DNA of 38,506 bases from Gemmatimonadales bacterium (GTDB lineage Bacteria > Gemmatimonadota > Gemmatimonadetes > Longimicrobiales > Gaopeijiaceae). The first letter of the stretch is position 1; every line of letters starts with the position of its first letter. Under the pieces are notes generated by a model that was not told the origin of the DNA, did not search any database, and saw nothing but the letters and a program-made list of their open reading frames with translations. The stretch spans positions 1 to 38,506 of the forward strand of contig REEG01000120.1 of the NCBI GenBank assembly GCA_007695195.1, read 5' to 3'. Positions 3 to 29,707 of the stretch are shown here, in pieces. Both the position numbers and the translations under genes were made by a program.

Positions 3-1310
3 GACCTCTTCCAGTACGGGGTCGAGGTGGCCGACGGGTGGGCCGGATGGGCCGGGTTCCGCGTTCTCTTTCCGCTGAACGAACCGGAGCGGATGGATGA
101 GGCGGCGTCCTTCCTCGGTGCATCCTACTTCCGCCTCCTGGGCCCCGGCCACGTCTACGGCCTGTCGGCACGGGGAATCGCCGTGGACACCACCGGTGAG
201 CGGGAGGAGGAGTTCCCGGACTTCCGCGAATTCTGGCTCGTCCGTCCCCAACCCGGAGACAGGACGCTGACCTTCTGGGGACTCCTGGACGGGCCGTCCC
301 TCACCGGCGCCTACCGCTTCCGGCTGGCCCCCCACGGACACCGGGACCTCGACGGGCTCGGGAATGCGGAGGTGTCGGTGGTGGAGGTGGAGGCGCACCT
401 CTTCGCCCGTCGGGACGTGGCGCGCCTCGGCGTGGCCCCCCTCACCAGCATGTTCCTCTTCGACGAGAATCGGGGGCGGGACTTCGATGACGTGCGCCCC
501 CGGGTCCACGACTCGGACGGCCTACTCATGCTCACCCGCTCAGGCGAGTGGATCTGGCGGCCGCTGAGCAATGGACCGGGGCTCCGGGTGTCGTCGCTTC
601 GGGACGTGGACCCCCGCGGCTTCGGACTCCTTCAGCGGGAGCGACGCTTCGACCGCTACCTGGATCTGGAAGCCAGGTACCATGACCGCCCCAGCCTGTG
701 GGTCGAGCCTCTGGACGAGGGGTGGGGCGGCGGCGGGGTCGAGCTGGTGGAAATCCCCACGGACTCCGAATTCCTGGACAATGTGGTGGCCTACTGGGCG
801 CCGGATGAGCCCTTCCGCGCCGGCGAGGAGCGAAGCTACCGGTACCGCCTGGTGAGCTTCGACCACCGGCTCCCTGAGCCGATTCTGGGTCCGCTCGTGG
901 AAGAGCTGGAGGCGGAGGTCCGTCCGGGGCGCGTGATTCGCTACCGGCACGGCTGGGACACCCTGCCAGGCGAGGCGGACCCGCCTCCCCGCAGCCGGCG
1001 ACGATTCGTGGTGGACTTCGAGGCGCCTCAGGGACCGGGCGGCCAGGGGGGTGCCACCGGATCCACTTCTGTGACCCCTCCGGCCGCGACGACGCCGGCC
1101 GGCACCCTTCCGGAGATCCGGCTTCAGGCCTCCGCCGGGCAGGTGGAGGGCGCCCGGGTCGAGCCCCTTCCGGAGCGAAGTGGCGGCTGGCGGGTAACCT
1201 TCGCTCTGGACCCGGGAGAGTCGCCGGCGGACATGCGCCTGTTCCTCACCCGGGACGGCCTGCCCATCACCGAGACGTGGAGCTACCTCTGGATCCCGGA
1301 TCATGACTGA
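3..1310 (+). CDS. opgG: Glucans biosynthesis protein G (OpgG/MdoG), 5' truncated
   Basis: This is the C-terminal three quarters of an OpgG/MdoG family protein, the periplasmic factor that works on the beta-1,2-glucan backbone made by OpgH in osmoregulated periplasmic glucan synthesis. The frame is open to the window edge, so the start and signal peptide are missing; the GTG at 27 lies inside conserved sequence and is not the start. Family blocks seen in order are a GAYRFRL segment, the APLTSMFLF block, RPRVHDSDG, GEWIWRPL, GFGLLQRERRFDRY and RPSLWVEPL. The stop at 1308-1310 overlaps the opgH start by 8 nt, consistent with the usual opgGH operon. A Gly/Thr/Pro-rich stretch near 1040-1110 separates the main domain from a C-terminal Ig-like domain. 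Family assignment is very secure. Confidence 0.95.
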   Translation, partial: DLFQYGVEVADGWAGWAGFRVLFPLNEPERMDEAASFLGASYFRLLGPGHVYGLSARGIAVDTTGEREEEFPDFREFWLVRPQPGDRTLTFWGLLDGPSLTGAYRFRLAPHGHRDLDGLGNAEVSVVEVEAHLFARRDVARLGVAPLTSMFLFDENRGRDFDDVRPRVHDSDGLLMLTRSGEWIWRPLSNGPGLRVSSLRDVDPRGFGLLQRERRFDRYLDLEARYHDRPSLWVEPLDEGWGGGGVELVEIPTDSEFLDNVVAYWAPDEPFRAGEERSYRYRLVSFDHRLPEPILGPLVEELEAEVRPGRVIRYRHGWDTLPGEADPPPRSRRRFVVDFEAPQGPGGQGGATGSTSVTPPAATTPAGTLPEIRLQASAGQVEGARVEPLPERSGGWRVTFALDPGESPADMRLFLTRDGLPITETWSYLWIPDHD

Positions 1311-3183
1311 TCGGTCCCCTCCGCAGCCTTGCCCCCGGCGGACCCTTCCCCGGGCTCTTCCGGCCATGGCCCTTCGCCGTGCCGGAATGGTGCTGGCGGT
1401 GTCGGGCACCACGGTGGCCGGGGCCCTTCTCATGCTGGGCATCATGGCCGGAGACGGACTGACCCTTCTCGAGGCAGGGATCCTGGCGCTCTTCGCCCCG
1501 AGTTTCGCCTGGATCTCCCTGGCCTTCTGGAACGGCGTCGCGGGCTTCTCATTGCAGCTCCTCCGGCTGGACCCCCTGACCCTGGAACGGCGACCCGCAC
1601 CGGGGAAGGTCGGGGAAGGGAGTGCTCCGCTCCGGTCCCGGGTGGCCCTGGTCATGCCCACCTACAACGAGGACCCGGAGCGGGTGGTGGCCGGACTCCT
1701 GGCCTCGCTGGACGCTGCCGCCTCCACCGGGCACGGAGAGGCATTCGAGGCCATTCTCCTGAGCGACACCTCGGACCCTGCCATCGGCCGGCGGGAGGAG
1801 GAGTTGGTAGCAGGCCTCCCCATCCGGTACCGGCGCCGCCCCGCCAACACCGGGCGCAAGGCCGGGAACATCGCCGAGTTCTGCGACCGGTGGGGAGCCG
1901 AGTACGATCTCATGGTCATCCTGGATGCCGACAGCCTCATGGGCGGTGACACCGTGGTGGAGCTGGTGCGCCGGATGGAGGCGAACCCCGGAGTCGGCCT
2001 CATCCAGACCGTTCCGATCCCGGCGCGCCAGGAGACGCCCCTGGGCAGGTTCGTCCAGTTCGCCTCGGCCCTCTACAGCCCCATGCTGGCGGCGGGCCAG
2101 GCCTTCTGGCAGGGAGACGCGGGAAATTACTGGGGCCACAACGCCATCCTGAGGGTGGAGCCCTTCTCCCGCCACGCCCGCCTCCCCGTCCTCTCGGGGG
2201 CGCCGCCTCTGGGCGGCGAGGTGCTGAGCCATGACTTCGTGGAGGCTGCGCTCCTGCGCCGGGCCGGGTGGCAGGTGGTGCTGGCGGCGGATCTCACCGG
2301 TAGTTGGGAAGAGGTGCCGGGAAACCTGGTGGACTTCGCCGTCCGGGAACGGCGTTGGGCCCAGGGAAGCCTGCAGCACCTTCGGCTTCTGGGCGTCGGC
2401 GGGTTCCACCCGGTGAGTCGTCTCCACCTTCTTCTGGGTGCCGTGAACTACCTGGCCTCGACCCTGTGGCTCCTCCTTCTCCTTCTCGGGACCGTCTACG
2501 TGCTGGCGCCGGGAGGGCACGGTCCCATGGTCATGGAGTCGCTCCCCGGATCGGGGTTGGGAGAAGGGATCCTGGATCGACTCGGGGCAGGGTGGCTATC
2601 CCTTCTCGGCGTCACGGCGGTGATCCTCTTCCTCCCCAAGGCGCTGGGAGTCGTCCTGGCTGTCCTCCGCCGACGCCGGGAGTTCGGGGGCGCAGTGCGT
2701 CTCGCCGCCGGAGCTCTGTTGGAGACGGTCCACAGCATCGTCATGGCGCCTGTCATGATGCTCTGGCACACCGCCTTCGTGGGCGGCGTCCTGGCCGGAC
2801 AGAACGTGACCTGGGGGCCGCAGATCCGTGAAGGTCGGGCCGTGGGGTGGCGCGAGGCCCTCCGGCGATCCGGATGGATGAGCGCCGTGGGCATGGCCTG
2901 GGCGGCGGCCATTGGGGTCCTGGCGCCCCTCTTCCTTCTCTGGATGTCCCCCATCCTGGTGGGCCTGGTGGCAGCGCCCGCTCTGGTTCGCCTGAGCGGG
3001 ATTGCCTCCTGGGGCGATAGATTGAGGAGAATGGGCCTTCTCCACACACCCGCGGAGCGGACGCCGCCTCCGGAACACCGTCTTCGGACCTTCCCACCGC
3101 CCTCCGACAGCTCTCCCTCCTCGCTCCGGACCGAACTGCGTATCCATGCGGAGCGTTCTCCCATCCCGGCCCACACGCCATGA
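1303..3183 (+). CDS. opgH: Glucans biosynthesis glucosyltransferase H (OpgH/MdoH)
   Basis: This inner-membrane GT2-family enzyme polymerises glucose from UDP-glucose and passes the chain to the periplasm. The 626-residue product has two N-terminal membrane segments (about 25-85), then a cytosolic GT domain: PTYNEDP at 119-125, the DAD metal/nucleotide motif at 208-210, the SHDF acceptor-site motif at 309-312 and RERRWAQG at 348-355. Hydrophobic segments follow to about residue 570, ending in a Pro/Ser-rich tail. It is clearly shorter than the roughly 850-residue enterobacterial enzyme, mainly because the N-terminal cytoplasmic extension is missing. The ATG overlaps the opgG end by 8 nt. Its own stop overlaps the next gene's ATG (3180-3183, ATGA), tying the glucan genes to the following pterin-type cluster. 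Confidence 0.95.
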   Translation: MTDRSPPQPCPRRTLPRALPAMALRRAGMVLAVSGTTVAGALLMLGIMAGDGLTLLEAGILALFAPSFAWISLAFWNGVAGFSLQLLRLDPLTLERRPAPGKVGEGSAPLRSRVALVMPTYNEDPERVVAGLLASLDAAASTGHGEAFEAILLSDTSDPAIGRREEELVAGLPIRYRRRPANTGRKAGNIAEFCDRWGAEYDLMVILDADSLMGGDTVVELVRRMEANPGVGLIQTVPIPARQETPLGRFVQFASALYSPMLAAGQAFWQGDAGNYWGHNAILRVEPFSRHARLPVLSGAPPLGGEVLSHDFVEAALLRRAGWQVVLAADLTGSWEEVPGNLVDFAVRERRWAQGSLQHLRLLGVGGFHPVSRLHLLLGAVNYLASTLWLLLLLLGTVYVLAPGGHGPMVMESLPGSGLGEGILDRLGAGWLSLLGVTAVILFLPKALGVVLAVLRRRREFGGAVRLAAGALLETVHSIVMAPVMMLWHTAFVGGVLAGQNVTWGPQIREGRAVGWREALRRSGWMSAVGMAWAAAIGVLAPLFLLWMSPILVGLVAAPALVRLSGIASWGDRLRRMGLLHTPAERTPPPEHRLRTFPPPSDSSPSSLRTELRIHAERSPIPAHTP

Positions 3184-4205
3184 ATCAGACTCGAGCCTTC
3201 TGGGTCACCGCCCCGGGCACCGGGGAACTCCGCCCCGCCACCGTCAGGGATCCCGGCCCAGGCGAACTCCGGGTGCGGACTCTCTTCTCGGGGATCAGTC
3301 GGGGGACGGAATCGCTGGTCTTCCAGGGGCGGGTGCCTGAGAGTCAGTGGGATCAGATGCGGGCTCCCTTCCAGGCCGGGGAGTTCCCGGGCCCCGTTCG
3401 CTACGGCTACCAGAACGTGGGCCGGGTGGATGCGGTGGGAGAAGGGGTCGAACCCCGGCTCTGGGGCCGCGCCGTTTTCTGCCTCTTCCCGCACCAGGAG
3501 GCCTATGTGGTTCCAGCCGGGGCGGTGATCCCCCTCCCCCAGGGGCTCCCGCCGTCCCGGGCCGTGCTCGCCGCCAACATGGAGACGGCGGTGAACGCCG
3601 TCTGGGACGCAGGTCCCTCGGTGGGTGACCGGATCGTGGTCATCGGAGCCGGCGTCGTGGGCCTCCTCATCGCCCGACTCTGCCGCCGGATTCCCGGCAC
3701 CCGGGTGCATCTGGTGGACCCTGCGCCGGAGCGCCGGGAGGTGGCGGAGCGGTTGGGCCTTCCGCTGGTCACGTCGACCAAGCGCCTTCCCGGCTCGGTG
3801 CGGGATGCGGATCTGGTCATCCACGCCAGCGGTAATCCGTCCGGACTTGAGGGCGCGCTGGACCTCCTGGGTCCCGAGGGCACGCTGGTAGAGGTGAGCT
3901 GGTTCGGCGATCGCCCCGTCTCCCTTCCCCTGGGAGGGAACTTCCACTCCCGCCGCCTGACGATCCGCAGCAGCCAGGTGGGTCGATTGTCTCCCGACCG
4001 CACACCGCGCTGGGACCATGGCCGACGCATGGAGTTGGCCCTTCGCCTCCTGGCTGGAGACCCGGATCTGGACGGCCTCATCAGTGGGGAGTCGCCCTTC
4101 CGGGACCTCCCCACCGTCATGTCCCGCATTGCCGGTGGGGAGGACCCGGGCGTGCTCTGCCACCGGATCCGCTACGAAGCCAACGAGGGGGTGGTGGCGC
4201 CGTAG
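3180..4205 (+). CDS. Medium-chain (MDR) dehydrogenase, BchC-like, lacking zinc ligands
   Basis: This 341-residue MDR-superfamily oxidoreductase has an N-terminal GroES-like domain and a Rossmann fold with GAGVVG at 156-161, followed by an acidic residue typical of nucleotide binding. The position that carries the catalytic zinc Cys in alcohol dehydrogenases reads GIS-RGTE (S40), and the GHE motif reads GYQ (76-78). The catalytic zinc site is therefore absent. BchC (bacteriochlorophyllide dehydrogenase) and related proteins share this GISxGTE pattern, so a zinc-independent dehydrogenation or reduction is more likely than classical alcohol dehydrogenase activity. The start overlaps the opgH stop, and the next gene begins 49 nt after this one ends. 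The context (PTPS homologue, glycosyltransferase, RibD reductase) suggests it modifies a side chain of a pterin-like product; the substrate is unknown. Confidence 0.85.
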
Positions 4206-4254: not shown

Positions 4255-4653
4255 GTGTTCAGTCTCAATGTCCGGGACCACTTCATGATCGCCCACAGCT
4301 TCCAGGGCGAGATCTTCGGCCCGGCGCAGAACCTTCACGGCGCCACCTATGTGGTGGACGCTACCTTCCGGAGAGCCGAACTCGATGAGGACGGGCTCGT
4401 GGTGGACATCGGGCTGGCGGCCGAGGAACTCAAGGGCATCTTGACGGAGCTGAATTACCGTAACCTGGACATGGTGCCGGAGTTCGAGGGTCGGAACACC
4501 ACCACCGAGTTCCTGGCCCAGGAGATCTTCCGGCGACTCCGGGCCCGGGTGAAGGCCGGCGCGCTGGGAGAGGGTGCTCGGGGCCTCCACTCCATCTCCG
4601 TGCGCCTGAACGAGTCCCACGTGGCCTGGGCCTCGTACGAAGCGGAGCTTTGA
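4255..4653 (+). CDS. Divergent 6-pyruvoyl-tetrahydropterin synthase/QueD homologue
   Basis: This 132-residue T-fold protein starts at GTG 4255. Family features are present: MIAHSF with His14 at the first zinc-ligand position, LHG with His28, VVDIG at 49-53, the TTTE block with Glu85, and a C-terminal NES segment with Glu120 where the family anchors the pterin ring. Residues expected in active QueD/PTPS are replaced. The catalytic Cys four residues before HGH is Ala24, the second His of HGH is Ala30, and the catalytic Asp-His pair appears as Asn67-Tyr68. The fold and pterin pocket are probably kept, while canonical triphosphate elimination or side-chain chemistry is probably lost or changed. 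The stop overlaps the proposed start of the glycosyltransferase gene. Annotation pipelines would call it 6-carboxytetrahydropterin synthase, which may mislead. Confidence 0.85.
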
Positions 4654-6770
4654 GCGCAGGCCACCGCCACCGGCAAAGCCCGGATCCGCCCCCACCCACG
4701 GGCCCCTGGCACCTGGTGGTGCCGGGGCCCGTGGGTCAGCGCACCGGTGGCTACCTCTACGACGCCCGCATGCGGGACGAGTTTCTCCGTCGGGGTTGGG
4801 AGATGCCTGTCCATGAGCTCCCGGGCCGGTTCCCCGCCGCCGATCCCGCAGCCAGACAGTCCATGGCGCGCACGCTGTCGGCGCTTCCCACCGGAAGCCG
4901 GGTGCTGCTGGACGGCCTGGCCTTGGGTGGACTGCCCTGCGAGGCGGCCGTACAGGCCCGCCGCCTCCGGCTCGTGGCCCTGGTGCACCACCCGCTGGCC
5001 CATGAGGCGGGGCTCCCGGCGCACCTGCGCCTCCGGTTCGGTCTGACCGAGCGGGAGGCCGTGCGCCACTGCATGGGAGTGGTGGTCACCAGCCCGTTCA
5101 CGGCGGAGCGGGTCCAGGCGCTGGGCGTCCCACCGGAGCGGATCAGGGTCGCCCCCCCGGGGACGGAGCCGGCGCCCCTGGCCTCGGCTCCGCTCCGGGC
5201 TCCTGCCTTCGGAAACGAGGCGCAGGGGCCCATGCACCTGGTGTGCGTGGGGTCGCTGGCGCCCCGGAAGGGGCAGGACATCCTGGTGGAGGCCGCCGCC
5301 CGGATGGAGGCTTCAGGGTGGACCCTGACCCTTGTGGGAAGCCTGGAGCGGAACCCGGCCTTCGCCCGGGAGGTGGTGCGGCGAATCCGGGAACTCGGCA
5401 TGGAAGATCGGATCCGGGTCTCCGGCGAGCTCGACCATGAGGCGCTGGAACGCCTCTACCGGCAGACCACCCTCCTGGTGGTCCCGTCGCTCTACGAAGG
5501 CTATGGAATGGTGGTGACCGAGGCGGTGGCGCGGGGGATTCCGGTGCTGGCCACCGATGGGGGAGCCCTTCCCCATACCCTTCCCGCGGGCTCCGGAGTG
5601 GTGGTCCCCGCCGGAGACGCCGCCGCACTGGGTCGCGCGCTGGACCAGCTTCTGGAAGCCCATGGCGCCCGTTCGGACCATCCCGGGGCGGCTCGCTGGC
5701 GGGCCCTGGTGGAGGAGGCCCGTCACTGTTCCGACCGGCTCCTCGACTGGCCCGAGGCCGCCTCGGTTCTGGCGGAAGCCCTGGCATCGCTGGACTCCAT
5801 GGAGGGGGCCCGCACGTCGGCCATGCCCTTCGCTCCGGAGCCCCCCCATGCGTCCGGGTCCGCCCACAGTCCCGACCCGTCCCGGGCACAGGCGTCACCA
5901 GACCCGGCAGACGCCACCTTCGACGCCGACTGGCTCAGCCTTCGCGAGCCTGTGGACCACCGGTCCCGAGCCGAGGGATTGCTCCCCGACCTGGTGGATT
6001 GGTGGCGCACCCGGATGGCCCATCGCATCGTGGATCTGGGCTCCGGGACCGGATCGAACCTGCGGTATCTGGCTCCTCGACTCCCGGGGTCCCAGCGATG
6101 GACCCTGGTGGATCACGACCCGGACCTCCTGGCCCGGGTCCGTCGGCCCACTCCATCCGGGACCTTCCACATCCGCTCGCTGGATCCCGTGGTGGCGGAC
6201 CTGGCCGGTCGGGGCCTTGAGTCGGTGGCCCGAGCCGACCTGGTCACCGCCTCCGCACTCCTGGACCTGGTGTCGAGGGAGTGGCTCGGGCGATTGGTGC
6301 AGGCGTGTCTCGAGGCGGGAGCGGCGGCCCTCTTCGCCCTCTCCTACGACGGAACCGTCCGGTGGTCCCGGGCCGCCGGAACGCTGGACACGGATGGCGG
6401 CGATGTGGAGGGCGGAACGAGGGTCAGCGACAGATGGATCCTGGACGCCGTCAACCGGCACCAGCACCGGGACAAGGGGACGGGGGGAGCGCTGGGTCCC
6501 CGGGCCGCGGAAGAGGCGGCCCGGCTCTTCCGTGGGGCGGGGTATCGATGTCGCCTCCTGCCGACTCCCTGGGTTCTGGGCTCCGCAGATGCATCGCTGG
6601 TCGGTGAACTCGTTGACGGTTGGGCCCGAGCGGCCACCGAGGTGGCCCCCGGACGGGCCGATGCCATCCGACGCTGGGCACGCCTCCGCACGAAACAGGT
6701 CGCCGCCGGAGAGGTTCAGGTCTCGGTGGGCCATCTGGATCTGCTGGCTCTCCCGCCGGAGGCCGGGTGA
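4650..6770 (+). CDS. Fusion: GT4 glycosyltransferase plus SAM methyltransferase
   Basis: This 706-residue two-domain protein begins with a GT4/GT-B glycosyltransferase (about 20-380). It has a Gly-rich N-terminal loop (GQRTGGY), the GSLAPRKGQ donor-domain block at 201-209 and the EX7E pair E283/E291 in [14 protein letters not shown] Pro/Ala/Ser-rich linker (about 385-425) leads to a class I SAM methyltransferase whose motif I is [10 protein letters not shown] at 461-470. No signal peptide or membrane segment is seen, so it is likely cytosolic. The proposed TTG start overlaps the upstream stop (TTGA, 4650-4653) and its ribosome site (GGAG at 4644) is poorly spaced. Homology begins near residue 20, so in-frame GTG codons near 4716 are alternatives. 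The fusion suggests one small acceptor is both glycosylated and methylated. Confidence 0.88.
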
Positions 6771-6801
6771 AGGGCCTGACGGGTCTACCGGAAGACCACC
6801 G

Positions 6802-7794
6802 GTGAAGAGCCGGTGGGGACGAGCGGGCCTTCGGTGGCTCCCGGGCCTGCTGGTGCTGGTGGGGATCCTCTACTGGCTCGGCGGCGCCGGACTGGGAGAT
6901 CGTCTCCGGAATCTCTCGCCGGGGTGGGTGCTGGTGGCCCTCCTCCTCTCGGTCCTGCAGGTGGTGATCTCGGCCTGGCGGTGGCGATTCACGGCGGCCC
7001 GACTGGGAATGCGCCTCCCCTTTCGCCGGGCCCTGGCGGAGTACTACCTGGCGGGCTTCCTGAACCAGGTGCTCCCGGGCGGCGTGGTGGGAGACGTGAC
7101 CCGTGCATGGCGCCATGCCGGCCGGGATGTGCGTGCAGGCCGGGCCTTCCGGGCGGTGATCCTGGAGCGGGCATCGGGACAGGTCATCATGACCGGCGTG
7201 GCGCTGGCCTCCCTGGTCCTCATGGTGTCCACCATGGTGGGCGGCGGGAGCGCAGCGGACGGTGAGATCCTTCGGGGATGGCTGGTCACCGGAGCGGTGG
7301 CGGTAGCATCGCTGGGGGTCGTGGGGGCGGCGGCATACCGCTTCCTGCACCGACGTCTGCGCGCGGAGATCCGCCGCGCACTCCTGGGCCGCCGTGCCCT
7401 TCCGGTGCAGATGGTGACATCGGCCCTGGTGGTAGCAAGTTATCTGGCCGTCTACCTGGCCTCCGCTCGCGCCGTGGGCGTGGAGACGCCGGTGAGCGTT
7501 CTCCTCCCCCTGGTGGCGCCGGTCCTGGTGGCCATGCTCATCCCCCTCACGGTGGCGGGCTGGGGAGTCAGGGAGGGTGCGGCGGCGCTGGTGTGGGCCG
7601 CGGTGGGTCTCGGCGCCGCCGAAGGGGTGGCCATCTCGGTGGCCTACGGGCTCCTGGTCCTGGTCTCGACGCTGCCGGGTGGGCTGGTCCTCCTGTGGGG
7701 CCCCGTCAGCCCTGGTGGTTGGAAGCCCCGGACCGGAGATCCAGATCGAAGAGCACGTCGGAGCCCAGGCGAAAGATCCGGGTCCGAGGCCTGA
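6802..7794 (+). CDS. UPF0104/lysylphosphatidylglycerol-synthase-type integral membrane protein
   Basis: This 330-residue polytopic protein resembles the flippase-like LPG_synthase_TM family (UPF0104, YbhN-like): about seven to eight hydrophobic helices, a conserved AEYYLAGFLNQVLPGGVVGDVTRAWR block early on, and a late GWGVREGA segment. It lacks the cytosolic aminoacyl-transferase domain of true MprF, so lipid aminoacylation is not expected. Transport or flipping of a lipid or the pathway product is an inference. I chose GTG 6802, 31 nt after the preceding stop, because the frame upstream has no family sequence. The last 89 nt run over the 3' end of the convergent creatininase/RibD gene, and the Arg/Ser/Gly-rich C-terminal tail lies in that overlap. 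Confidence 0.82.
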   Translation: MKSRWGRAGLRWLPGLLVLVGILYWLGGAGLGDRLRNLSPGWVLVALLLSVLQVVISAWRWRFTAARLGMRLPFRRALAEYYLAGFLNQVLPGGVVGDVTRAWRHAGRDVRAGRAFRAVILERASGQVIMTGVALASLVLMVSTMVGGGSAADGEILRGWLVTGAVAVASLGVVGAAAYRFLHRRLRAEIRRALLGRRALPVQMVTSALVVASYLAVYLASARAVGVETPVSVLLPLVAPVLVAMLIPLTVAGWGVREGAAALVWAAVGLGAAEGVAISVAYGLLVLVSTLPGGLVLLWGPVSPGGWKPRTGDPDRRARRSPGERSGSEA

Positions 7795-9340
7795 GCGCCC
7801 CCTCCATCCGGCGGATGGGAGGAAGGGTCAGGGCGGGGCGTCCGGAGCCCATGAGGAGGGGCGCCACGGTGACGTGGAGGCGGTCAAGCGCCCCCGCCTC
7901 CAGGAAGTGGGAGACGGTCGTTCCGCCACCTTCCACCAGGATCCGTGAGAGACCCCGGGCACGGAGGACCCGGATCACCTCCCCAGGATCGAATCGTCCG
8001 TCGGCGTCGGTGGGAAGGGATACCCGCTCCACGCCCGGCTCCCGGGAACCACCGGAGGTCTCCACCGAAGCGGCGGGAGCGCGGTGGCGGCCGGGCGATG
8101 CGCCTTCGCCGCCATCATCTTCTGCGGCCACAAGGTGGAGGGTGGGCGCAGCGCCGTCCCGGAAGATCCGGAGCGTTTCCGGAAGCCGGCACCTGGGGTC
8201 CAGCACCACCCGGACCGGATTCGAGCCCGGCACCCGCCGTACGGTCAGTCGGGGGTCGTCGGAGAGGGCGGTACCGGCTCCCACCACCACGGCGTCCACC
8301 AGGGCACGCAGGCGGTGGAGGCGCACCAGATCCTCTTCGCCGGTGACGTAGTGGGAATGGCCCTCCTCGGTGGCGATCCGTCCGTCCAGCCCCTGCCCCA
8401 ACTGGCCCACCACGAAACGGGCGTCGGCCATGAGGGGCAGGAAGAGTTCGGAGAGGGGATCATCTGCGGGAGCCCCCCTCGCAGGACCGGTCCCGAGGGC
8501 GACGCCGGGCCCGGCGTCACTGGACCGGGACCCGTCCAGCGGGGCCCGCCTCCCTTCCAGACGATCCAGGGGGAAGGCCCTGGCGTCGCGCAGGACGGCG
8601 GCCAGCCGAGCCCCCCAGAATTCCACCATCGTCCGACCCATGGCGGCGTCGGCCAGGGTGGCGTCGCCGGTGAAGCCCAGCGGATTCAGATCTCCGGCCA
8701 GCCAGGCGAATCCCGCCGCCCCTTCCGCCGAAACGATCTCCAGAGAGGCCTCGAGTTCCTGGGCCAGGGAAGGCCCCGGACGAAGCTCGTCCGTTCGGAC
8801 CAGGTCGGGTCGGAGGTGAAGCATCATGGCGGTTTCCACGGCCCCGCCGTGGAGTCCGTGTCGCCACTCCCCATCGGGAAGCTCCACCGAGGGCGGGCGG
8901 CCGAACCGGGGGTAGTGGACCGGGATGACCAGGAGTCCCGCCTCGGCGCGGAGGCGGAGGGCAGCACCTTCCAGGGCATGCCGGTTGCCACCGTGGGTAT
9001 TCAGGATCACCAACCGCCGTCCGCCCGACGCGGCAAGGCGTCGTCCCATCCGGACCACCCAGTCCGTCAGGAGATGGGCGGGAACGCTCAGGGTGCCGGG
9101 GAAGCCCTCGTGCTCCAGACTGGCCCCCACCTCCAGCGCCGGCAGATGGACCAGGGGGAACTGGGACGGGAGGTGCCGCTCGGCCTCCGAGACCAGGCCG
9201 GCGGCGATGACGGCGTCGGTGGAGAGGGGCAGATGGGGGCCGTGCTGCTCCGTGGCCGAGACGGTCCACAGGACCACCGGGTCCGAGGCGGCGAGGCGTG
9301 CCGCCTCGGGCCAGGTCAGCTCTCCCCAGACCCGGCTCAT
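7706..9340 (-). CDS. Fusion: creatininase-family amidohydrolase plus RibD-type reductase
   Basis: This 544-residue protein has an N-terminal creatininase domain (1 to about 255). Its metal ligands are intact by motif: E31 and H33 in TEQHGPH, D42, H116 in NTHGGN and E169 in HGGAVE. A low-complexity linker (about 262-300) precedes a RibD_C/dihydrofolate-reductase-like domain with LDGRIAT, HRLRALVDAVVVGAGT, DDPRL and a late LVEGGG nucleotide-binding motif. There is no RibD deaminase domain. In archaeal riboflavin/F420 synthesis, the creatininase homologue ArfB deformylates FAPy-ribose phosphate and the reductase ArfC acts next; by analogy this may catalyse both steps. I chose ATG 9340, which overlaps the FkbM stop (ATGA), because the longer frame upstream shows no domain sequence and reads through the preceding gene. 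Confidence 0.9.
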   Translation of the reverse strand: MSRVWGELTWPEAARLAASDPVVLWTVSATEQHGPHLPLSTDAVIAAGLVSEAERHLPSQFPLVHLPALEVGASLEHEGFPGTLSVPAHLLTDWVVRMGRRLAASGGRRLVILNTHGGNRHALEGAALRLRAEAGLLVIPVHYPRFGRPPSVELPDGEWRHGLHGGAVETAMMLHLRPDLVRTDELRPGPSLAQELEASLEIVSAEGAAGFAWLAGDLNPLGFTGDATLADAAMGRTMVEFWGARLAAVLRDARAFPLDRLEGRRAPLDGSRSSDAGPGVALGTGPARGAPADDPLSELFLPLMADARFVVGQLGQGLDGRIATEEGHSHYVTGEEDLVRLHRLRALVDAVVVGAGTALSDDPRLTVRRVPGSNPVRVVLDPRCRLPETLRIFRDGAAPTLHLVAAEDDGGEGASPGRHRAPAASVETSGGSREPGVERVSLPTDADGRFDPGEVIRVLRARGLSRILVEGGGTTVSHFLEAGALDRLHVTVAPLLMGSGRPALTLPPIRRMEGALRPRTRIFRLGSDVLFDLDLRSGASNHQG

Positions 9341-10083
9341 GACTCCCCTCGCACCCGGCGGGCATAGAGGTCTCCCGACGGTGCGGCGCCGGCCCCTTCC
9401 CGGAGCCAGGCAACCGCTCCATCCGCCGAACACCACCGGGAGAAGAGAAAACGTCGCCCCTCCCCGGACACGGCGTTGAACTCGTACTCTCCCAATTCGG
9501 TCAGTCGCTCCACGCACGCCACCGCCACCTCCAGCGACCCGGCCACGAACTCAAAGGACAGCGCCTGCAGGGGCCGCGTCAGCCCGGCCAGGACCCGGTC
9601 TTCAAACCCCTCCACGTCCACCTTGCAGAAGCGCGGCTCGCCGTGCTCCCGAATGAGCTCGTCCAGGGTGGTGACGGGCACCTCCACCTCCCGGTTCCAG
9701 CGAACCCGGCGAAAGCCCGGATTCGTGCGCCGGATCTGCTCCGTCCACCCCCGGTCCAGGGTGGACACGGTGGGGTTGCCGGGGCTCACGGCCAGCGACG
9801 CCGAACCGGTGGAGGGACCGGCGGCCCGGGGCACGATCACCACCCCGGGCCGTCGCCCCACCAGGCGCCGGAGCCAGGGAAGAAGGCGGGGGTTGGGCTC
9901 CAGCGCCACGACCCGGGCCCCCAGCGCCGAAAAGGCCGCCGTTCGGTCTCCCAGGTGCGCTCCCACATCGAATACCAGGTCATCCGGGCCCACGAAGGGC
10001 CGATAGAGTTCACGGAGCGCCCCCTGGCGTCCCGGACGCCAGTAGATGAAGAGGGAGCGAAGGAGACCCCACCACGCCTTCAT
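9337..10083 (-). CDS. FkbM-family SAM-dependent methyltransferase
   Basis: This 248-residue methyltransferase has motif I in VFDVGAHLGDRT (about 37-48), the acidic ribose-binding residue in ALEPNP, and the FkbM hallmark FCKVDVEGFED followed by LSFEF. FkbM enzymes O-methylate hydroxyl groups on sugars and polyketides, so a sugar carried by the locus product is a reasonable substrate, though unproven. Its start overlaps the stop of the CBS gene, and its stop overlaps the start of the creatininase/RibD fusion (both ATGA), so the three minus-strand genes are translationally coupled. A second, distinct FkbM protein is encoded at 28675-29706. Confidence 0.9.
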   Translation of the reverse strand: MKAWWGLLRSLFIYWRPGRQGALRELYRPFVGPDDLVFDVGAHLGDRTAAFSALGARVVALEPNPRLLPWLRRLVGRRPGVVIVPRAAGPSTGSASLAVSPGNPTVSTLDRGWTEQIRRTNPGFRRVRWNREVEVPVTTLDELIREHGEPRFCKVDVEGFEDRVLAGLTRPLQALSFEFVAGSLEVAVACVERLTELGEYEFNAVSGEGRRFLFSRWCSADGAVAWLREGAGAAPSGDLYARRVRGES

Positions 10084-12187: not shown

Positions 12188-13462
12188 ATGGATCTCCGAC
12201 AGATCTGGACCCTGTACCGCCACGAGATCCGTTCGGCGCTCCGGGAACGGAGCATCCTCCTCACCAGCATCATCCTCCCCGTGGTCATGTACCCCACCCT
12301 CCTCTGGGTGGGGTTCACGGGATTCTACTTCCTCGAGGGCCAGGCCGAAGCCATGAGCACCCGGATCGGGGTGACCTCCGTTCCCGAGGTGCATGAACCG
12401 CTGGTGGACTCTCTGGCCGCCAACCCCCGCATCGAGATCCTGGAGTGGACCGACGATGAACGGGCCGCGGCGGCGGAGATCGTACGCGGTCGGATGGAAG
12501 CCCTTCTGGAGCCCATGCCACCCCGGGACGCAGGCGAAGCACTGGACGGGAATCGGACCATCCGGATCCTCTACACCGAGGTGCGGGAGGGTAGCCGATC
12601 GGCCCGGGCCCGGATCGAGGATGTGACCAACGCACACGGCGCCGACTGGATCACGGAGATCCGGAGGGATCTGGGCGTATCGGACACGGTCTGGGCCGAC
12701 TACGCCGTGGTCATGTCCGATCAGGCCAGCGCCGAAGACGTCACCCGCTTCCTCCTGGCCATGATCGTCCCCCTCCTCACCCTCATCATGGTGGCGCTGG
12801 CCGCCTTCTATCCTGCCATCGATGCCACGGCGGGCGAGCGGGAGCGGGGAACCTGGGAGACGCTCATGACGGTGGCCGCCCCGCGAAGTACCGTGGCCAC
12901 GGCCAAGTATCTCTACGTGGCCACCTTCGGCGCCGTAGGCGGACTCCTGAACCTGGCGGCCCTGGCGCTCTCCATCCGATGGATCCTATCGCCCATGACC
13001 AACGGGGTGGGCGAGGAACTCAGCCAGGGTGGAGTTCCCCTCTCGGCCATCCCGGTGATCCTGGCGGGAACGGCCCTTCTGGGCCTCTTCGTCGCCGCCG
13101 GGATGCTGGTCTTCGCCGTCTTCGCCCGGGACTTCAAGGAGGGGCAGTCCATGATCACCCCCTTCTACATCGTCATCCTCATGCCGGCCCTCTTTCTCCA
13201 GTCTCCCAACCTGGAGTTCACCACCGGTCTGGCCGCCGTCCCCATCGTCAACGTGGCCCTTCTGCTGCGGGGCGCCATCCTGGGCGATATCCCCTTCCTG
13301 TCGGGACTGGTGACCCTCATCTCCATGGGGATGGCGGTGATCGCCGCCGTGGCGCTGGCCCAGTTCGTCATGCGCCGGGAGGAAGTCCTCCTCGGGAGCG
13401 GCCAGGGCGGACTCTGGAACTTCCTGACCCGCACCCTCCGTCAAGGGAGGAATGGCTCGTGA
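12188..13462 (+). CDS. ABC-2 type exporter permease, NatB-like
   Basis: This 424-residue permease has a single N-terminal membrane helix (about 22-48), a roughly 150-residue extracytoplasmic domain, and a C-terminal block of about five helices starting near residue 190. The ERERGTWETLMT motif before the second helix of that block is typical of NatB/ABC-2 permeases. NatAB systems export Na+ in Bacillus, but relatives move varied substrates, so the substrate is unknown. It is the first of three overlapping genes: its stop overlaps the GTG of the ATPase gene. The upstream 210 nt contain only the hairpin noted separately. The ATG is supported by the start of the family sequence; the ribosome site is weak. 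Confidence 0.9.
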   Translation: MDLRQIWTLYRHEIRSALRERSILLTSIILPVVMYPTLLWVGFTGFYFLEGQAEAMSTRIGVTSVPEVHEPLVDSLAANPRIEILEWTDDERAAAAEIVRGRMEALLEPMPPRDAGEALDGNRTIRILYTEVREGSRSARARIEDVTNAHGADWITEIRRDLGVSDTVWADYAVVMSDQASAEDVTRFLLAMIVPLLTLIMVALAAFYPAIDATAGERERGTWETLMTVAAPRSTVATAKYLYVATFGAVGGLLNLAALALSIRWILSPMTNGVGEELSQGGVPLSAIPVILAGTALLGLFVAAGMLVFAVFARDFKEGQSMITPFYIVILMPALFLQSPNLEFTTGLAAVPIVNVALLLRGAILGDIPFLSGLVTLISMGMAVIAAVALAQFVMRREEVLLGSGQGGLWNFLTRTLRQGRNGS

Positions 13463-14250
13463 CCGATCCGTTCGTTGAGACCCGAAACCTGACCAAGACC
13501 TTCTACGAGGAGAGCCGGGGCGAGGTCCGGGCCGTGGACAGCGTCGACCTGACCTGCCGGAGTGGCGAGATCCTTGGGCTCCTGGGGGCCAATGGAGCCG
13601 GAAAGACCACCACGCTCCGAATGCTCTCCACCGTTCTGCGTCCCACCTCCGGTGAGGCCTGGGTCATGGGACACGAGGTCAGAAAGGATCCGGAGCGGGT
13701 CCGTGAGAATCTGGGCTTCTATTCGGCCAGCACGGCGCTGTATCCCAAGATCACGGCCCGGGAGACCCTGCGCTTCTTCGCCCAGGTGAACCGCTTCCCC
13801 CGCGAGCGCATCGAGGCCCGGATCGAGGAACTCATCGACCGGTTTGGAATCGGGGACTTCGCCAACAGCCGGGTCGAAAAGCTCTCCAGTGGGATGAAGC
13901 AGAAGGTCTCCATCGCCCGCACCGTGGCCCATGACCCTCCGGTGCTGATCTTCGACGAGCCCACGGTGGCACTGGACGTCCTGAATGCCATCGAACTCCG
14001 TCAGATCATCGGCCGGCTTCGGGACGAGGGAAAGGCCATCCTCTTCTCGACCCACATCATGAGCGAGGCCGAACAGCTCTGCGATCGGATCGCCATCATC
14101 CACCAGGGACGGATCCTGGCCGTAGGTACCCTGGATGAATTGAGGAAATCCACCGGCCATCACTACCTGGAAGAGATCTTCGTCCACTTCGCCCGGGTAC
14201 GGGATCCCAGCGAAGCCGAGGTGGAGAGCCTCCGTCGGGATCGCCCATGA
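13459..14250 (+). CDS. ABC transporter ATP-binding protein, NatA-like
   Basis: This 263-residue ATPase energises the two flanking permeases. Walker A is GANGAGKT at 43-50, the signature is LSSGM at 142-146, and Walker B with the catalytic Glu is VLIFDEPT at 162-169, followed by a switch His in FSTHIMSEAE. The GTG start at 13459 overlaps the upstream stop (GTGA) and has a strong GGGAGG ribosome site at 13445-13450. The stop overlaps the ATG of the next permease (14247-14250). The signature is LSSGM rather than LSGGQ, which is common in NatA/ABC-2 ATPases. One ATPase flanked by two different permeases suggests a heterodimeric membrane unit. Confidence 0.93.
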   Translation: MTDPFVETRNLTKTFYEESRGEVRAVDSVDLTCRSGEILGLLGANGAGKTTTLRMLSTVLRPTSGEAWVMGHEVRKDPERVRENLGFYSASTALYPKITARETLRFFAQVNRFPRERIEARIEELIDRFGIGDFANSRVEKLSSGMKQKVSIARTVAHDPPVLIFDEPTVALDVLNAIELRQIIGRLRDEGKAILFSTHIMSEAEQLCDRIAIIHQGRILAVGTLDELRKSTGHHYLEEIFVHFARVRDPSEAEVESLRRDRP

Positions 14251-16328
14251 GGCTCACCGTTCCCATCCGCGCGGTCTTCGGCCTGGAGATCCGCACCCTG
14301 CTTCGGGACCCGCGGACCCTCCTCATCTCGGTGGTCCTCCCCATCGTTCTGATTCCGGCCATCCTCATCGCCGGCGACTGGATCGAGTCCCGGGAGGCCC
14401 GGGCCACCGAGGCGCTGAGCTTCCGGGTGGCGGTGGAAGGTGACCGGGTCGATCTCGCCCGGGCCCTCCTCCTTCGGGTGGGCGACGAAACCCCACCGGG
14501 AGCGGGCAGGGACCCCACCTCGCGGTTCCAGTTCGTGGATCTGGAGGAGCCCGGTGAGGCGCTGGCCGACGCCCGCATCGACGTGGTCCTCCACGCCATG
14601 GACTACGGTACGTGGATGCGTGGGGTCGAGGACGGGTCGGTGGACCCCGGTCCCGGTGGACCGCCGGGGGAATTCGATGGAGCGCCTCGGCTACAGATCC
14701 TCTTCCACTCGGACCGGACCAGCTCCCGGGAGGGGGCGCAGGCCCTTCGCCGCCACCTTCTGGACATCCGGGAGGTCCGTCGTGACTCCATCCTCCTGGC
14801 GGCGGGATTCCCGGTCCCCACCGACGAAGTGCTGGTTGTGGAGAGCGTCAATGTGGCGCCCCCCGAGGCCATGGAAGGAGCGCAGTTGGGGCGGTTTCTC
14901 ACCCTGATCCTCCTGGGCCTCATGACGCTGGGGGGGTCCGCCATCGCCACCGATACCCTGGCGGGGGAGAAGGAACGCGGGACGCTGAACACCCTGCTCA
15001 CCTCGGCGGCCCGTCGGCAGGAGATCATCACAGGGAAGCTCCTGGCCATCATGGCGGTGGCCTTCGCCATCGCCCTGATCCAGATCCTGAATCTCTGGCT
15101 CTTCCTGGGTCTGGGGATCGTGGATGTGGGAGGTGCGCTGGCCGTCCGGATCCCGCCGGAGGCGGCGCTCCTTCTTCTGGTGCTCTATCTCCCGGCGGTG
15201 GCGCTGGTATCGGGAGTGTTGCTCCTGACCTCGGCGTACGCCCGGAGCTACAAGGAGGCTCAACTCTACCTGACCCCGGTCCTCCTGGCCCTGGTCCTTC
15301 CGGCCGCAGTGCCCATGCTGCCGGGGATCTCCCTTCAGTCGGCCATCCTCCTGGTCCCCATCGCCAACCTGGGGGTGGCGGTCCGGGACCTCCTCATGGG
15401 GGACATCCATATCCCCTCAGTCATGACGGCCTGGGCGGTGACGGCACTGGCCGCGACGTGGGTCACCCGTCGCTGCGTCCTGGCCATCCAGGATGAAAAC
15501 CTCCTTCTGGGCGACCGATCCCAGGAGGAGCATACTGGCGGGGAGGGGCTCTTCCGGAAACAGGTCCTGGTGTGGGTCCTGGTTCTCTGGGGGGTGAAGA
15601 TCCTCTGGGACTTCAACATCCCGGTCCAGGACCTGCGGTGGGCGTCCCTTCTGGGCGTTGGGCTCGTCTTCGGGCTCTTCCCGCTCGTGGTGATCCGCCG
15701 CTTCCGTCTGGAGCCGCGGCGGGCGTTGGCTCTCAGAATGCCCCATCCCGGGGTGTGGGCCGGGGTGCTTCTGGGCGTGCCGGCGGGGATCCTCACCGTC
15801 CTGGGCGTCTTCCAACTGGTGGACACGGTGGTGCCGGTCCCCACGGAGATGATGGAGAGCCTGGGGCAGGCGTTGACGCCCGAGGCCATCCCGGTCTGGC
15901 AGCTCCTCATCTTCGTGGCGTTGGTCCCGGGAATCACCGAAGAATTAACCTTCCGTGGGGTGGTGCTCTACGGCCTCCGGCGACGCTTCGGGCCCGTCGC
16001 GCTGGCGCTGGTGGTGGGCCTCATCTTCGGCATCTTCCACTTCTCCCTCTTCCGGATCCCCACCACGGCCACGCTGGGGGTGATCCTTACGGCCGTCACG
16101 CTCCTCACCGGGTCCATCCTTCCGGCCATGGTCTGGCACACCCTGAACAACGCCGCAGCGGTCCTGGCCAGTCGGGACATGCTCCCTGGAATCGACTCGG
16201 AGTGGTTGGCGGAGGGTGTGGGCTGGGGGTGGAGCGTCAGTGGACTGGTGGCCCTGGGCGTTGCCTTCGCCGTCATCTGGCGGTTCCGCACTCCGTATCC
16301 GGAGGTGGGCCCGCCCAGGGTGGGGTGA
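14247..16328 (+). CDS. Fusion: ABC-2 permease plus CPBP (CAAX-like) intramembrane protease
   Basis: This 693-residue membrane protein has an N-terminal NatB-like permease (about 1-400) with one leading helix, a large extracytoplasmic loop, the KERGTLNTLLTSA motif and about five helices. Several more helices lead to a CPBP/Abi domain (about 540-660). The three CPBP motifs are intact: EExxxR as E565-E566-R570, the FxxxH-type His H598, and HxxxN as H631/N635. CPBP proteins include Rce1-type CAAX proteases and bacteriocin-immunity proteins. Joined to an exporter permease, the domain may process or protect against the exported molecule. It ends the natB-natA-natB/CPBP operon. The architecture has been seen in other bacteria, so it is informative but probably not unique. 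Confidence 0.9.
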   Translation: MRLTVPIRAVFGLEIRTLLRDPRTLLISVVLPIVLIPAILIAGDWIESREARATEALSFRVAVEGDRVDLARALLLRVGDETPPGAGRDPTSRFQFVDLEEPGEALADARIDVVLHAMDYGTWMRGVEDGSVDPGPGGPPGEFDGAPRLQILFHSDRTSSREGAQALRRHLLDIREVRRDSILLAAGFPVPTDEVLVVESVNVAPPEAMEGAQLGRFLTLILLGLMTLGGSAIATDTLAGEKERGTLNTLLTSAARRQEIITGKLLAIMAVAFAIALIQILNLWLFLGLGIVDVGGALAVRIPPEAALLLLVLYLPAVALVSGVLLLTSAYARSYKEAQLYLTPVLLALVLPAAVPMLPGISLQSAILLVPIANLGVAVRDLLMGDIHIPSVMTAWAVTALAATWVTRRCVLAIQDENLLLGDRSQEEHTGGEGLFRKQVLVWVLVLWGVKILWDFNIPVQDLRWASLLGVGLVFGLFPLVVIRRFRLEPRRALALRMPHPGVWAGVLLGVPAGILTVLGVFQLVDTVVPVPTEMMESLGQALTPEAIPVWQLLIFVALVPGITEELTFRGVVLYGLRRRFGPVALALVVGLIFGIFHFSLFRIPTTATLGVILTAVTLLTGSILPAMVWHTLNNAAAVLASRDMLPGIDSEWLAEGVGWGWSVSGLVALGVAFAVIWRFRTPYPEVGPPRVG

Positions 16329-27730: not shown

Positions 27731-28678
27731 TCAGATGAGCCCCCGGAAGCGCTCCGGGATCCGGATCACCGGGTCGCCGGGAATCATCCCAGGCTTGTTC
27801 AGGGCGTAGGGGGGCCGGACCCAGCTCTGCCACCGCCGGGCTCGGTCAAAGTAGGCGTCCCCGTCCCGGGGCTCGGACCCGGTGATGATCTCGAAGAGGC
27901 GCCGGCGCCTGTTCAGGTGCCCTCCCCACCCGGTCTTCTGGCGATCGCTGTCGCCCACCTTCCCATGGGCCAGCGCCTCGTCGGCCATGCCCAGATGGAA
28001 GACGAAGAGGTTGGGGTCGATGCGGAAATTCCGACCCTTGATGCGGTGCATCCCCGAGCCCCAGGTGACCGGCGCCGTAGCCACCACCGGCTTGGTGTAG
28101 CGAGACGAGACGTGGGCATAGGCCCGCTGCTCCAGGATGGGGCGCTCCGGATCCAGGGGGTCTTCCTGGTCCAGGTGTTGTCCCACATCCAGCCCGAGCC
28201 CCGACAGGGTGCGGGGAAGGCGCGGGCGGGAGGCGAGGTACGTGCCCAGATCCATCCCGAGGCGCGGGTCCACCACCAGGAACTCGTCCACGTCGCAGAC
28301 GATGAGCACGTCGTAGTAGTGGAAGAGGCCGTCGGCAATGCGCGACATGACCCGGGCGCGACGGCGCATGGCCGCCACCCGCCCCAGGGGGGTGTGGGGA
28401 AGGCGCAGGACGCTGCGCCCGGCATGGCTCTCGGGCAGGTTCTGGTCGTGCCCATCCAGGATGGGGACCAGGTTGTCCGGCCCGCAGATTCGGCCGTAAT
28501 GGGCAATCCACCGCTTCAGGAAGAAGTCGTCGTTCCGGCAGGTGGTGACGGCACAGATGCGGAGGTGCCGGCCGGTTCCGACGCCGTCGGCGCTGTCGCC
28601 TCCCTCACCGGGCCCATGTGCCTCGGTCCTGGTCACGCCGCGCGCCGCTCGGACCGTATCGCCATCCCTCCCGGTCAT
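27731..28678 (-). CDS. GT92-like/GT2-type glycosyltransferase
   Basis: This 315-residue protein shows ICAVTTCRNDDFFLKRWIAHY followed by a strand and VLIVCDVDEFLVVDP. That is the layout of the Glyco_tranf_2_4/GT92-type family, where a DxD-like motif (CDVDEF) coordinates the metal. Further on are GSGMHRIKGRNF and FHLGMADEALAHGK. A poorly conserved Gly/Arg-rich N-terminus (about 1-38) precedes the domain. ATG 28678 overlaps the stop of the FkbM gene (ATGA), so the two are coupled. It most likely adds one sugar to a surface polysaccharide. The N-terminal tail is unusual and could mean the true start is a little downstream. Confidence 0.82.
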   Translation of the reverse strand: MTGRDGDTVRAARGVTRTEAHGPGEGGDSADGVGTGRHLRICAVTTCRNDDFFLKRWIAHYGRICGPDNLVPILDGHDQNLPESHAGRSVLRLPHTPLGRVAAMRRRARVMSRIADGLFHYYDVLIVCDVDEFLVVDPRLGMDLGTYLASRPRLPRTLSGLGLDVGQHLDQEDPLDPERPILEQRAYAHVSSRYTKPVVATAPVTWGSGMHRIKGRNFRIDPNLFVFHLGMADEALAHGKVGDSDRQKTGWGGHLNRRRRLFEIITGSEPRDGDAYFDRARRWQSWVRPPYALNKPGMIPGDPVIRIPERFRGLI

Positions 28679-29706
28679 GTGCGCCCCCCTCCCGCCTCGC
28701 TCCCGCGGGGCCCGTGTCCGGCTCGTCCGGCTCCGGCCCCGGGGAGGAGATCCCATGTGGGAGGAAGCCAGGGCGGACGCTGGGCGGAGCCGAAGCCCGT
28801 CCCCTCTCCCCGGACCATCACCACATCGGTGTGGAATCGCCCGGAGCGCCCGGCCACCAACTCTCCCAGCGACGGTAACGGCCGGAGCTGATCCCTTCCC
28901 CGTCGCCGCTCCGGGACGAAGAGCCGGAACCCCTCCAGCATGTCATCCACCTCCGATATGGAGGCTCCCGCCGCCTCCATCAGCTCGCGGTCCACCTCCA
29001 CATACCCCACCGCCAGCGGTGCCGCCGCCACAGTCCGGGCCATCCCGCGAAGGACGAAGGACTCGAACCCCTCCACATCGATCTTGAAGACCAGGGGACC
29101 GTCCAGCGGCCCCGGCCCGGTCAGCCCTCCCACCAGGGTATCGATGCGGGTGGCAGGGACCTCCACGCGCTCCCTCTCTCCCCCGTCCTCATGGCCCGCG
29201 AATGCCCGGGTCCGGCCACTCCATCGGGGCTCGAGCCAGAGCGAGGCCAGCTCCCGATCATCATCGCCGGCGATGGCGTGGTGGAGGTGGATAAGCGATG
29301 TGTCGGGATGCGCGTCCCTCGACCGCTCCAGGTGGGGAAGGATGCGGGGATTCGCCTCCACTCCGAGGACGCGGGTCGCCGGGGGATAGCGGAGCGAGAA
29401 GAGGCACTCCCCGTAATTGGCGCCCACATCCAGGCAAACCGCCGGTTCCAGGTGCACGGTGAAGTCACGCCAGAACCGGATGTGGCGCGCCGTTCGGCGG
29501 CGAGCGAAGTCCAGAGCAATCTTGTGAAGCGCCCGTTGGTCATGGGGATCGATGGAGAGGGAGGCCTCGAAGTCCGGGTACGGGACCCACTCCGGTCGCA
29601 GCGTGCCGTACCGGCGGCGCAACAGGACGTGCATCTTCACGGCGCGGATGGCGTGCTCCACCGACTTCCCCGCCCACTTCAGGACCCCACCCACTCCTCC
29701 GGACAT
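28675..29706 (-). CDS. FkbM-family methyltransferase
   Basis: This 343-residue protein has motif I in CLDVGANYGECLFS (about 91-104), VLGVEANPRI, and the FkbM block FKIDVEGFESFVLRGM. The C-terminal roughly 60 residues are Gly/Arg/Pro-rich and poorly conserved. FkbM enzymes O-methylate sugars, and the flanking glycosyltransferases suggest a surface glycan target. The ATG at 29706 lies 1 nt after the YrbL-like stop, and the stop overlaps the next glycosyltransferase start. It is distinct from the FkbM protein at 9337-10083, which is shorter and in a different operon. Confidence 0.9.
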   Translation of the reverse strand: MSGGVGGVLKWAGKSVEHAIRAVKMHVLLRRRYGTLRPEWVPYPDFEASLSIDPHDQRALHKIALDFARRRTARHIRFWRDFTVHLEPAVCLDVGANYGECLFSLRYPPATRVLGVEANPRILPHLERSRDAHPDTSLIHLHHAIAGDDDRELASLWLEPRWSGRTRAFAGHEDGGERERVEVPATRIDTLVGGLTGPGPLDGPLVFKIDVEGFESFVLRGMARTVAAAPLAVGYVEVDRELMEAAGASISEVDDMLEGFRLFVPERRRGRDQLRPLPSLGELVAGRSGRFHTDVVMVRGEGTGFGSAQRPPWLPPTWDLLPGAGAGRAGHGPRGSEAGGGRT

Positions 29707-29707
29707 G

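Follow-up and report, generated by a model that had tools for sequence, protein, structure and literature searches.

The window, a stretch of 38,506 nucleotides from a Gemmatimonadales bacterium (assembly GCA_007695195.1, contig REEG01000120.1, positions 1 to 38,506), encodes a 544-residue protein in which a creatininase-family domain is joined to a RibD_C reductase domain (Table 1). Pfam places Creatininase (PF02633) at residues 7-249 (E 1.9e-59) and RibD_C (PF01872) at residues 309-511 (E 5.1e-38), and finds no deaminase domain in the 544 residues. All five metal ligands (E31, H33, D42, H116 and E169) are there and do not vary when the protein is aligned with BrbF, MftE and further members of the family, and the RibD_C half carries LDGRIAT, DDPRL and LVEGGG. 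A preliminary description of this DNA was right on all three points: the ligands are intact, the motifs are intact and there is no deaminase. Judged by sequence, the two assignments are far beyond chance because each half has relatives that are 50-67% identical to it, some of them from other phyla.

An AlphaFold model, built from an input of 48 cluster sequences, predicts two domains that are well folded (mean pLDDT 85) and connected by a linker at about residues 266-295, of which residues 270-291 are modelled as disordered. In Foldseek searches, the best PDB matches of the creatininase domain were creatininases (3a6h and 1j2t), and those of the RibD_C domain were the archaeal pyrimidine reductases MthRED (6p8c) and MjaRED (2azn). 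TM-scores by target were 0.80 for MthRED and 0.79 for MjaRED; the longer, whole chains of bacterial RibD gave about 0.5.

Table 1. Features of the window around the fused gene.
Feature	Position	Strand	Basis
MdoG/OpgG periplasmic glucan protein, 5' end cut by contig edge	27..1310	+	profile match begins at 106 of 478
OpgH-like GT2 glycosyltransferase	1303..3183	+	
Zn-binding dehydrogenase, first gene of conserved convergent operon	3180..4205	+	
PTPS-fold protein, SCO6650 type, start approximate	4255..4653	+	PDB 3d7j, E 4.5e-54
GT4 glycosyltransferase fused to SAM methyltransferase	4650..6770	+	
LPG_synthase_TM / flippase-like membrane protein, convergent with fusion gene, start approximate	6769..7794	+	
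Creatininase-RibD_C fusion gene, 544 aa	7706..9340	-	open reading frame free of stops, Pfam, alignment, AlphaFold, Foldseek
RibD_C half without deaminase, about aa 296-540 of the fusion, stand-alone type	7709..8476	-	profiles, tree, fold
Creatininase-family half, aa 1-265 of the fusion	8546..9340	-	metal ligands, tree
FkbM-type methyltransferase, 4-base overlap with fusion gene start	9337..10083	-	

The fused gene belongs to a conserved cluster. Genes for the Zn-dehydrogenase, the PTPS homologue, the GT4-methyltransferase and the LPG_synthase_TM protein lie upstream and run convergently towards it, preceded by OpgG and OpgH, and an FkbM-type methyltransferase gene adjoins the creatininase gene in most clusters of Gemmatimonadota and Acidobacteriota. 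The conserved set consists of GTP cyclohydrolase II (GCHII), creatininase and/or RibD_C, an SCO6650-type PTPS, a Zn-dehydrogenase, a GT4, a methyltransferase, a flippase-like protein and a CDP-alcohol transferase. It recurs in four phyla, namely Gemmatimonadota, Acidobacteriota, Actinobacteria and Proteobacteria (Thioalkalivibrio, Vreelandella and Thauera), with GCHII beside or between the creatininase and RibD_C genes. Besides GCHII, the related clusters usually contain the CDP-alcohol transferase and often a sulfatase-like gene.

At the window, the SCO6650-type PTPS, Zn-dehydrogenase, GT4, methyltransferase and flippase-like genes stand in order, as in clusters of the Streptomyces coelicolor SCO6650-SCO6655 type. 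The PTPS-fold protein is an apparent orthologue of SCO6650 (PDB entry 3d7j). It reads LHGAT where working enzymes read GHGHN, and the Cys and one zinc-site His are missing; SCO6650 itself is reported to have neither zinc nor PTPS activity and to have kept a pterin-like site. The PTPS gene occurs in about 15% of the sampled Streptomyces-class genomes, with up to 72% identity to that of the window. Gene set and order are alike in the actinobacterial clusters, one of which (L114) reads PTPS-GT4-methyltransferase-flippase-creatininase-GCHII, an order that fits the numbering SCO6650-SCO6655, with SCO6654 as the predicted creatininase. The Streptomyces clusters differ in that their creatininase belongs to another subfamily, RibD_C is usually absent and their GCHII has Met in place of Tyr. 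A search of the literature on the cluster, SCO6650/SCO6655 and the creatininase-RibD fusion gave the BrbF paper (PMC9478397) as the sole relevant match.

Several other gene fusions were seen. GT4 and the SAM methyltransferase share one frame in the window and at L051, L052, L090 and L198, and are separate genes in most relatives. An OpgH-like glycosyltransferase and the cluster GCHII share an open frame of about 1000 residues at L040:1918-4962 and at L081, L039, L083, L076, L078 and L088, which links periplasmic glucan synthesis with the cluster pathway. Beside the cluster in Actinobacteria, a CDP-alcohol phosphotransferase is fused to a sulfatase-like domain (L118, L122, L123, L126-L128, L182, L184, L187, L190 and L199). 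GCHII is fused to the cluster RibD_C at L196:10917-12437 and L198:12799-14862, in two clusters that lack creatininase and whose GCHII keeps the Tyr. Elsewhere in the window, reading of the sequence suggests a further FkbM-like methyltransferase gene and, after it, a small kinase-like open reading frame at 28675-30301, apparently unrelated to the cluster, and an ABC-2 type permease, an ATPase and a permease fused to a CPBP-like protease domain at 12188-16328.

We compared the creatininase half with family models. It scored 137 bits with the MftE model (TIGR03964, cut-off 172), its best NCBIfam score, 77.5 bits with the creatininase model (TIGR04448, cut-off 235) and 18.4 bits with the ArfB model (NF033501, cut-off 180). 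The last model had no genome match at E 0.001 or below, and the scanned neighbours in the window include no mycofactocin genes. We rejected this ranking as a test of function, since a genuine BrbF ranks likewise (MftE 104, creatininase 65 and ArfB 31 bits). BrbF (S. meliloti SMc02977) is a creatininase homologue and a proven bacterial FAPy-nucleotide formamidase; we took its sequence from S. meliloti Ak57 (locus L111), recognised by the MarR and GTP-binding CobW-type neighbours as published (PMC9478397). Because this proven enzyme reaches only 31 bits with the ArfB model, a low score there does not refute a deformylase.

Phylogenetic analysis placed the creatininase half inside a group of 44 entries that contains BrbF (support 97/90), with creatininase and MftE outside; ArfB was represented by its HMM only, the tree holding no archaeal ArfB sequences. 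Grouping with creatinine amidohydrolases or MftE, a possible outcome raised in the preliminary description, was thus not observed. Within the BrbF-containing group, the cluster creatininases of Gemmatimonadota, Acidobacteriota and Proteobacteria form a clade of their own (100/100). The genome's own second creatininase copy falls outside the group, and the actinobacterial cluster creatininases form a separate subfamily (100/100). By its position in the tree the creatininase half is a member of the BrbF group, and by its profile score it is not an ArfB, so the ArfB label first given to it fails, while the idea of FAPy deformylation that came with the label gains from the BrbF grouping and the genome context.

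The half shares with BrbF the same metal ligands and a C-terminal F-W-DLNP-G-GNA/GDA region. However, the two are only 32-37% identical and stand in separate clades, and the window half has no MarR or CobW neighbours, being instead fused to or beside RibD_C in a cluster with GCHII and PTPS. Membership of the BrbF group does not always go with BrbF function, as Oant_3869, a protein of the group, did not complement a BrbF mutant (PMC9478397). We also noticed that the BrbF gene of Sinorhizobium sp. K101 (NZ_CP104131.1, L092:2840-3672) lies in two frames relative to S. meliloti, perhaps through a sequencing error. With archaeal ArfB (MJ0116), the half shares the creatininase superfamily and the FAPy deformylation proposed here; ArfB differs in being monofunctional and in being supplied by GCH III (ArfA).

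The RibD_C half resembles the archaeal ArfC reductases, its nearest relatives in sequence and fold. Like them it has a stand-alone fold without a deaminase, in contrast to bacterial RibD, which joins an N-terminal deaminase to the reductase. In the tree, a 100/100 branch separates it from canonical RibD and leaves ArfC on the same side, although the RibD_C halves form one clade of their own (99/97). The match to the ArfC model (TIGR01508) reaches 114 bits against a cut-off of 186, and ArfC is not fused to a creatininase domain. The earlier reading of this half as ArfC stands as to the side of the tree and the distance from RibD, with a score below the cut-off of the ArfC model.

The canonical ribD, the ribE-like riboflavin synthase gene and the single ribBA of this genome lie on another contig (C62), and the interpretation is corrected from riboflavin synthesis to an orphan pathway. 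A cluster GCHII was not found in a search of the genome assembly, whereas each of the nine other Gemmatimonadota genomes that we checked has both a canonical GCHII and one of cluster type. In a relative of the same genus (G161, L212), the cluster GCHII lies just past OpgG and is followed by the CDP-alcohol transferase. The window contig starts inside a truncated OpgG and contains neither gene, so the absence is most simply an assembly gap, with gene loss as the less simple possibility; the contig probably breaks before the GCHII gene. By comparison with G161, sulfatase-like, cytochrome b561-like, GCHII and CDP-alcohol transferase genes would be expected upstream of the window. We ruled out that genomes with the fusion have no GCHII, as in the others it lies on the contig of the fusion, some 10-15 kb off.

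FAPy is an intermediate of the GCHII reaction, which ends in the deformylated product. In Actinobacteria, the presence of creatininase follows a residue of GCHII, Tyr105 in E. coli RibA numbering. Across 45 actinobacterial clusters, a creatininase lies in or near the cluster in all 33 in which this Tyr is lost (replaced by Met, Leu, His or Gln) and in none of the 12 in which it is kept. One apparent exception, L185, has its creatininase about 14 kb from the PTPS gene, and genome-wide searches of all 12 Tyr-type genomes found either no creatininase or only MftE-like and unrelated ones. An independent-pairs test on the tree was not significant, with too few contrasts. As there were few independent evolutionary changes, the argument rests on biochemical logic and not on a p-value. 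Spoonamore et al. 2006 are said to have found that SCO6655, which has Met at the Tyr105 position, stops at the FAPy nucleotide, and that changing this Met to Tyr reportedly restored the normal product. Taken together, there is strong circumstantial evidence that the creatininase of Tyr-less actinobacterial clusters is a FAPy deformylase. Many of these clusters have no RibD_C, and deformylation and reduction are therefore no obligate pair.

For the creatininase subfamily of the window FAPy deformylation is only putative, because the partner GCHIIs keep the Tyr and the window's own copy is absent from the assembly. In the cluster GCHIIs of Gemmatimonadota, Acidobacteriota and Proteobacteria, Tyr105 is retained, and Ala or Ser replaces the canonical Glu53 beside the first zinc Cys. 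This change initially seemed a second correlate of creatininase (21/21). It was ruled out as such because a GCHII outside the cluster (G857) has it too, as does a cluster that lacks this creatininase (G950); it is thus a trait of the lineage and no evidence of FAPy release. The GCHIIs of Gemmatimonadota and Acidobacteriota (L038:9791-11245, minus strand, and relatives) also have an N-terminal region of about 180 residues without a family match.

We propose, at about even confidence, that the fusion is a bifunctional, ArfB-ArfC-like enzyme in a dedicated pathway from GTP to a pyrimidine. The cluster GCHII would convert GTP to the FAPy nucleotide, 2-amino-5-formylamino-6-ribosylamino-4(3H)-pyrimidinone 5'-phosphate. 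The N-terminal half, as a metal-dependent amidohydrolase, would remove formate from it, and the C-terminal half, as an NADPH reductase, would reduce the 2,5-diamino-6-ribosylamino product of that step to the 6-ribitylamino compound; with no deaminase, the 2-amino group would be retained. The PTPS-fold protein, Zn-dehydrogenase, GT4, methyltransferase and CDP-alcohol transferase may then modify the reduced compound, and the LPG_synthase_TM protein may transfer it across the membrane. The end product would be a putative pterin- or pyrimidine-glycoside, possibly lipid-linked or exported, and not riboflavin. The analysis itself shows the fusion, its predicted folds and intact motifs, the conserved cluster and the co-occurrence of creatininase with the GCHII residue in Actinobacteria; the two reactions and the order in which they run, the cofactor and the end product, like everything in this mechanism beyond the gene content, we infer from the protein families.

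This proposal best explains the conservation of GCHII beside creatininase and RibD_C across four phyla, the grouping of the creatininase half with BrbF and not with creatininase or MftE, and the tracking of GCHII Tyr loss by the actinobacterial creatininase. It also accounts for the nearness of the RibD_C half to archaeal ArfC in a genome with its riboflavin genes elsewhere, for creatininase-RibD_C fusions at separated places on the tree, and for the two direct fusions of RibD_C to GCHII in Tyr-type clusters without creatininase. The latter fit a RibD_C that acts directly on the deformylated product, and the creatininase-RibD_C fusion fits an extra step placed before RibD_C. Our confidence stays near even mainly because the GCHIIs of the window's lineage, with their Tyr105, need not stop at FAPy. 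Deformylation followed by reduction outside riboflavin synthesis had been the preliminary suggestion; it gains partial support from the genome context, the ArfB label had to be corrected, and the supply of FAPy in this lineage is the weak point.

The retained Tyr, required for deformylation, means that these GCHIIs may release the deformylated product themselves. The creatininase half might then cleave a different, later amide, such as that of an acyl or formyl group carried by a glycosylated intermediate, next to an ArfC-like reductase half, and the fusion would reflect membership of one pathway and not adjacent steps. A gammaproteobacterial cluster (L207) that has GCHII and RibD_C yet lacks a creatininase of this clade agrees with such a role, as does the diversity of creatininase-family substrates (creatinine, peptides, inosose derivatives and FAPy, going by family names). 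Nevertheless, in actinobacterial clusters the creatininase at the corresponding place follows the GCHII switch residue without exception, and BrbF is the relative of known function within the same supported group, so we consider this reading unlikely, although it is the most serious competitor.

Alternatively, the GCHII could make mainly the deformylated product, with the creatininase half as a salvage or proofreading deformylase that rescues leaked FAPy nucleotide. The formation of FAPy by GCHII en route favours this, as does the replacement of Glu53, which we take from the E. coli RibA annotation to lie in the GTP-binding segment; a fusion would also pass the rescued product on to the reductase. 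We regard salvage as improbable, since it gives no account of why almost every Gemmatimonadota cluster has kept the gene.

The fusion itself is real but sporadic. Only four of the 35 sampled entries with both domains are fused (the window, L036, which equals L080, L082 and L084), and in the remainder the two genes are adjacent, often with an opposite-strand GCHII gene between them. In the same-genus relative G161 (L072) they are two separate genes. Relative to G161, some 65 residues at the N-terminus of RibD_C have been lost from the window fusion, so that it is probably a lineage event and not a simple read-through. That the fusion is a recent accident or assembly artefact without functional meaning, the proteins working apart as in relatives, might be argued from its rarity, the split relative and this loss of an extension that the other fusions kept, but is improbable given that other genomes have fusions whose linker differs and whose reductase N-terminus is intact, that the creatininase tree requires three changes, and that both active sites are intact.

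Returning to the proposed bifunctional enzyme, we tentatively suggest, at somewhat less than even confidence, that the cluster encodes a third bacterial route from GTP to pyrimidines besides folate (GCH I) and riboflavin (GCH II). A modified GCHII would stop at the FAPy nucleotide, followed by a creatininase-family formamidase, an ArfC-like reductase, and then a metal-free PTPS-fold protein with glycosylation, methylation and CDP-alcohol enzymes that lead to an exported or lipid-linked glycoside; the second and third enzymes would be joined in Gemmatimonadota. This would connect three loose ends: the FAPy-producing GCHII and PTPS homologue of S. coelicolor, the bacterial creatininase-type FAPy formamidase, and a widespread unnamed cluster. 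The relation between the GCHII switch residue and creatininase offers a simple, testable rule for telling which bacteria divide the GCHII reaction over two enzymes, and hints at where the missing FAPy-forming enzyme (BrbG) might be sought in bacteria with BrbF. The compound that the cluster finally makes may belong to a new class of glycosylated pterins or pyrimidines.
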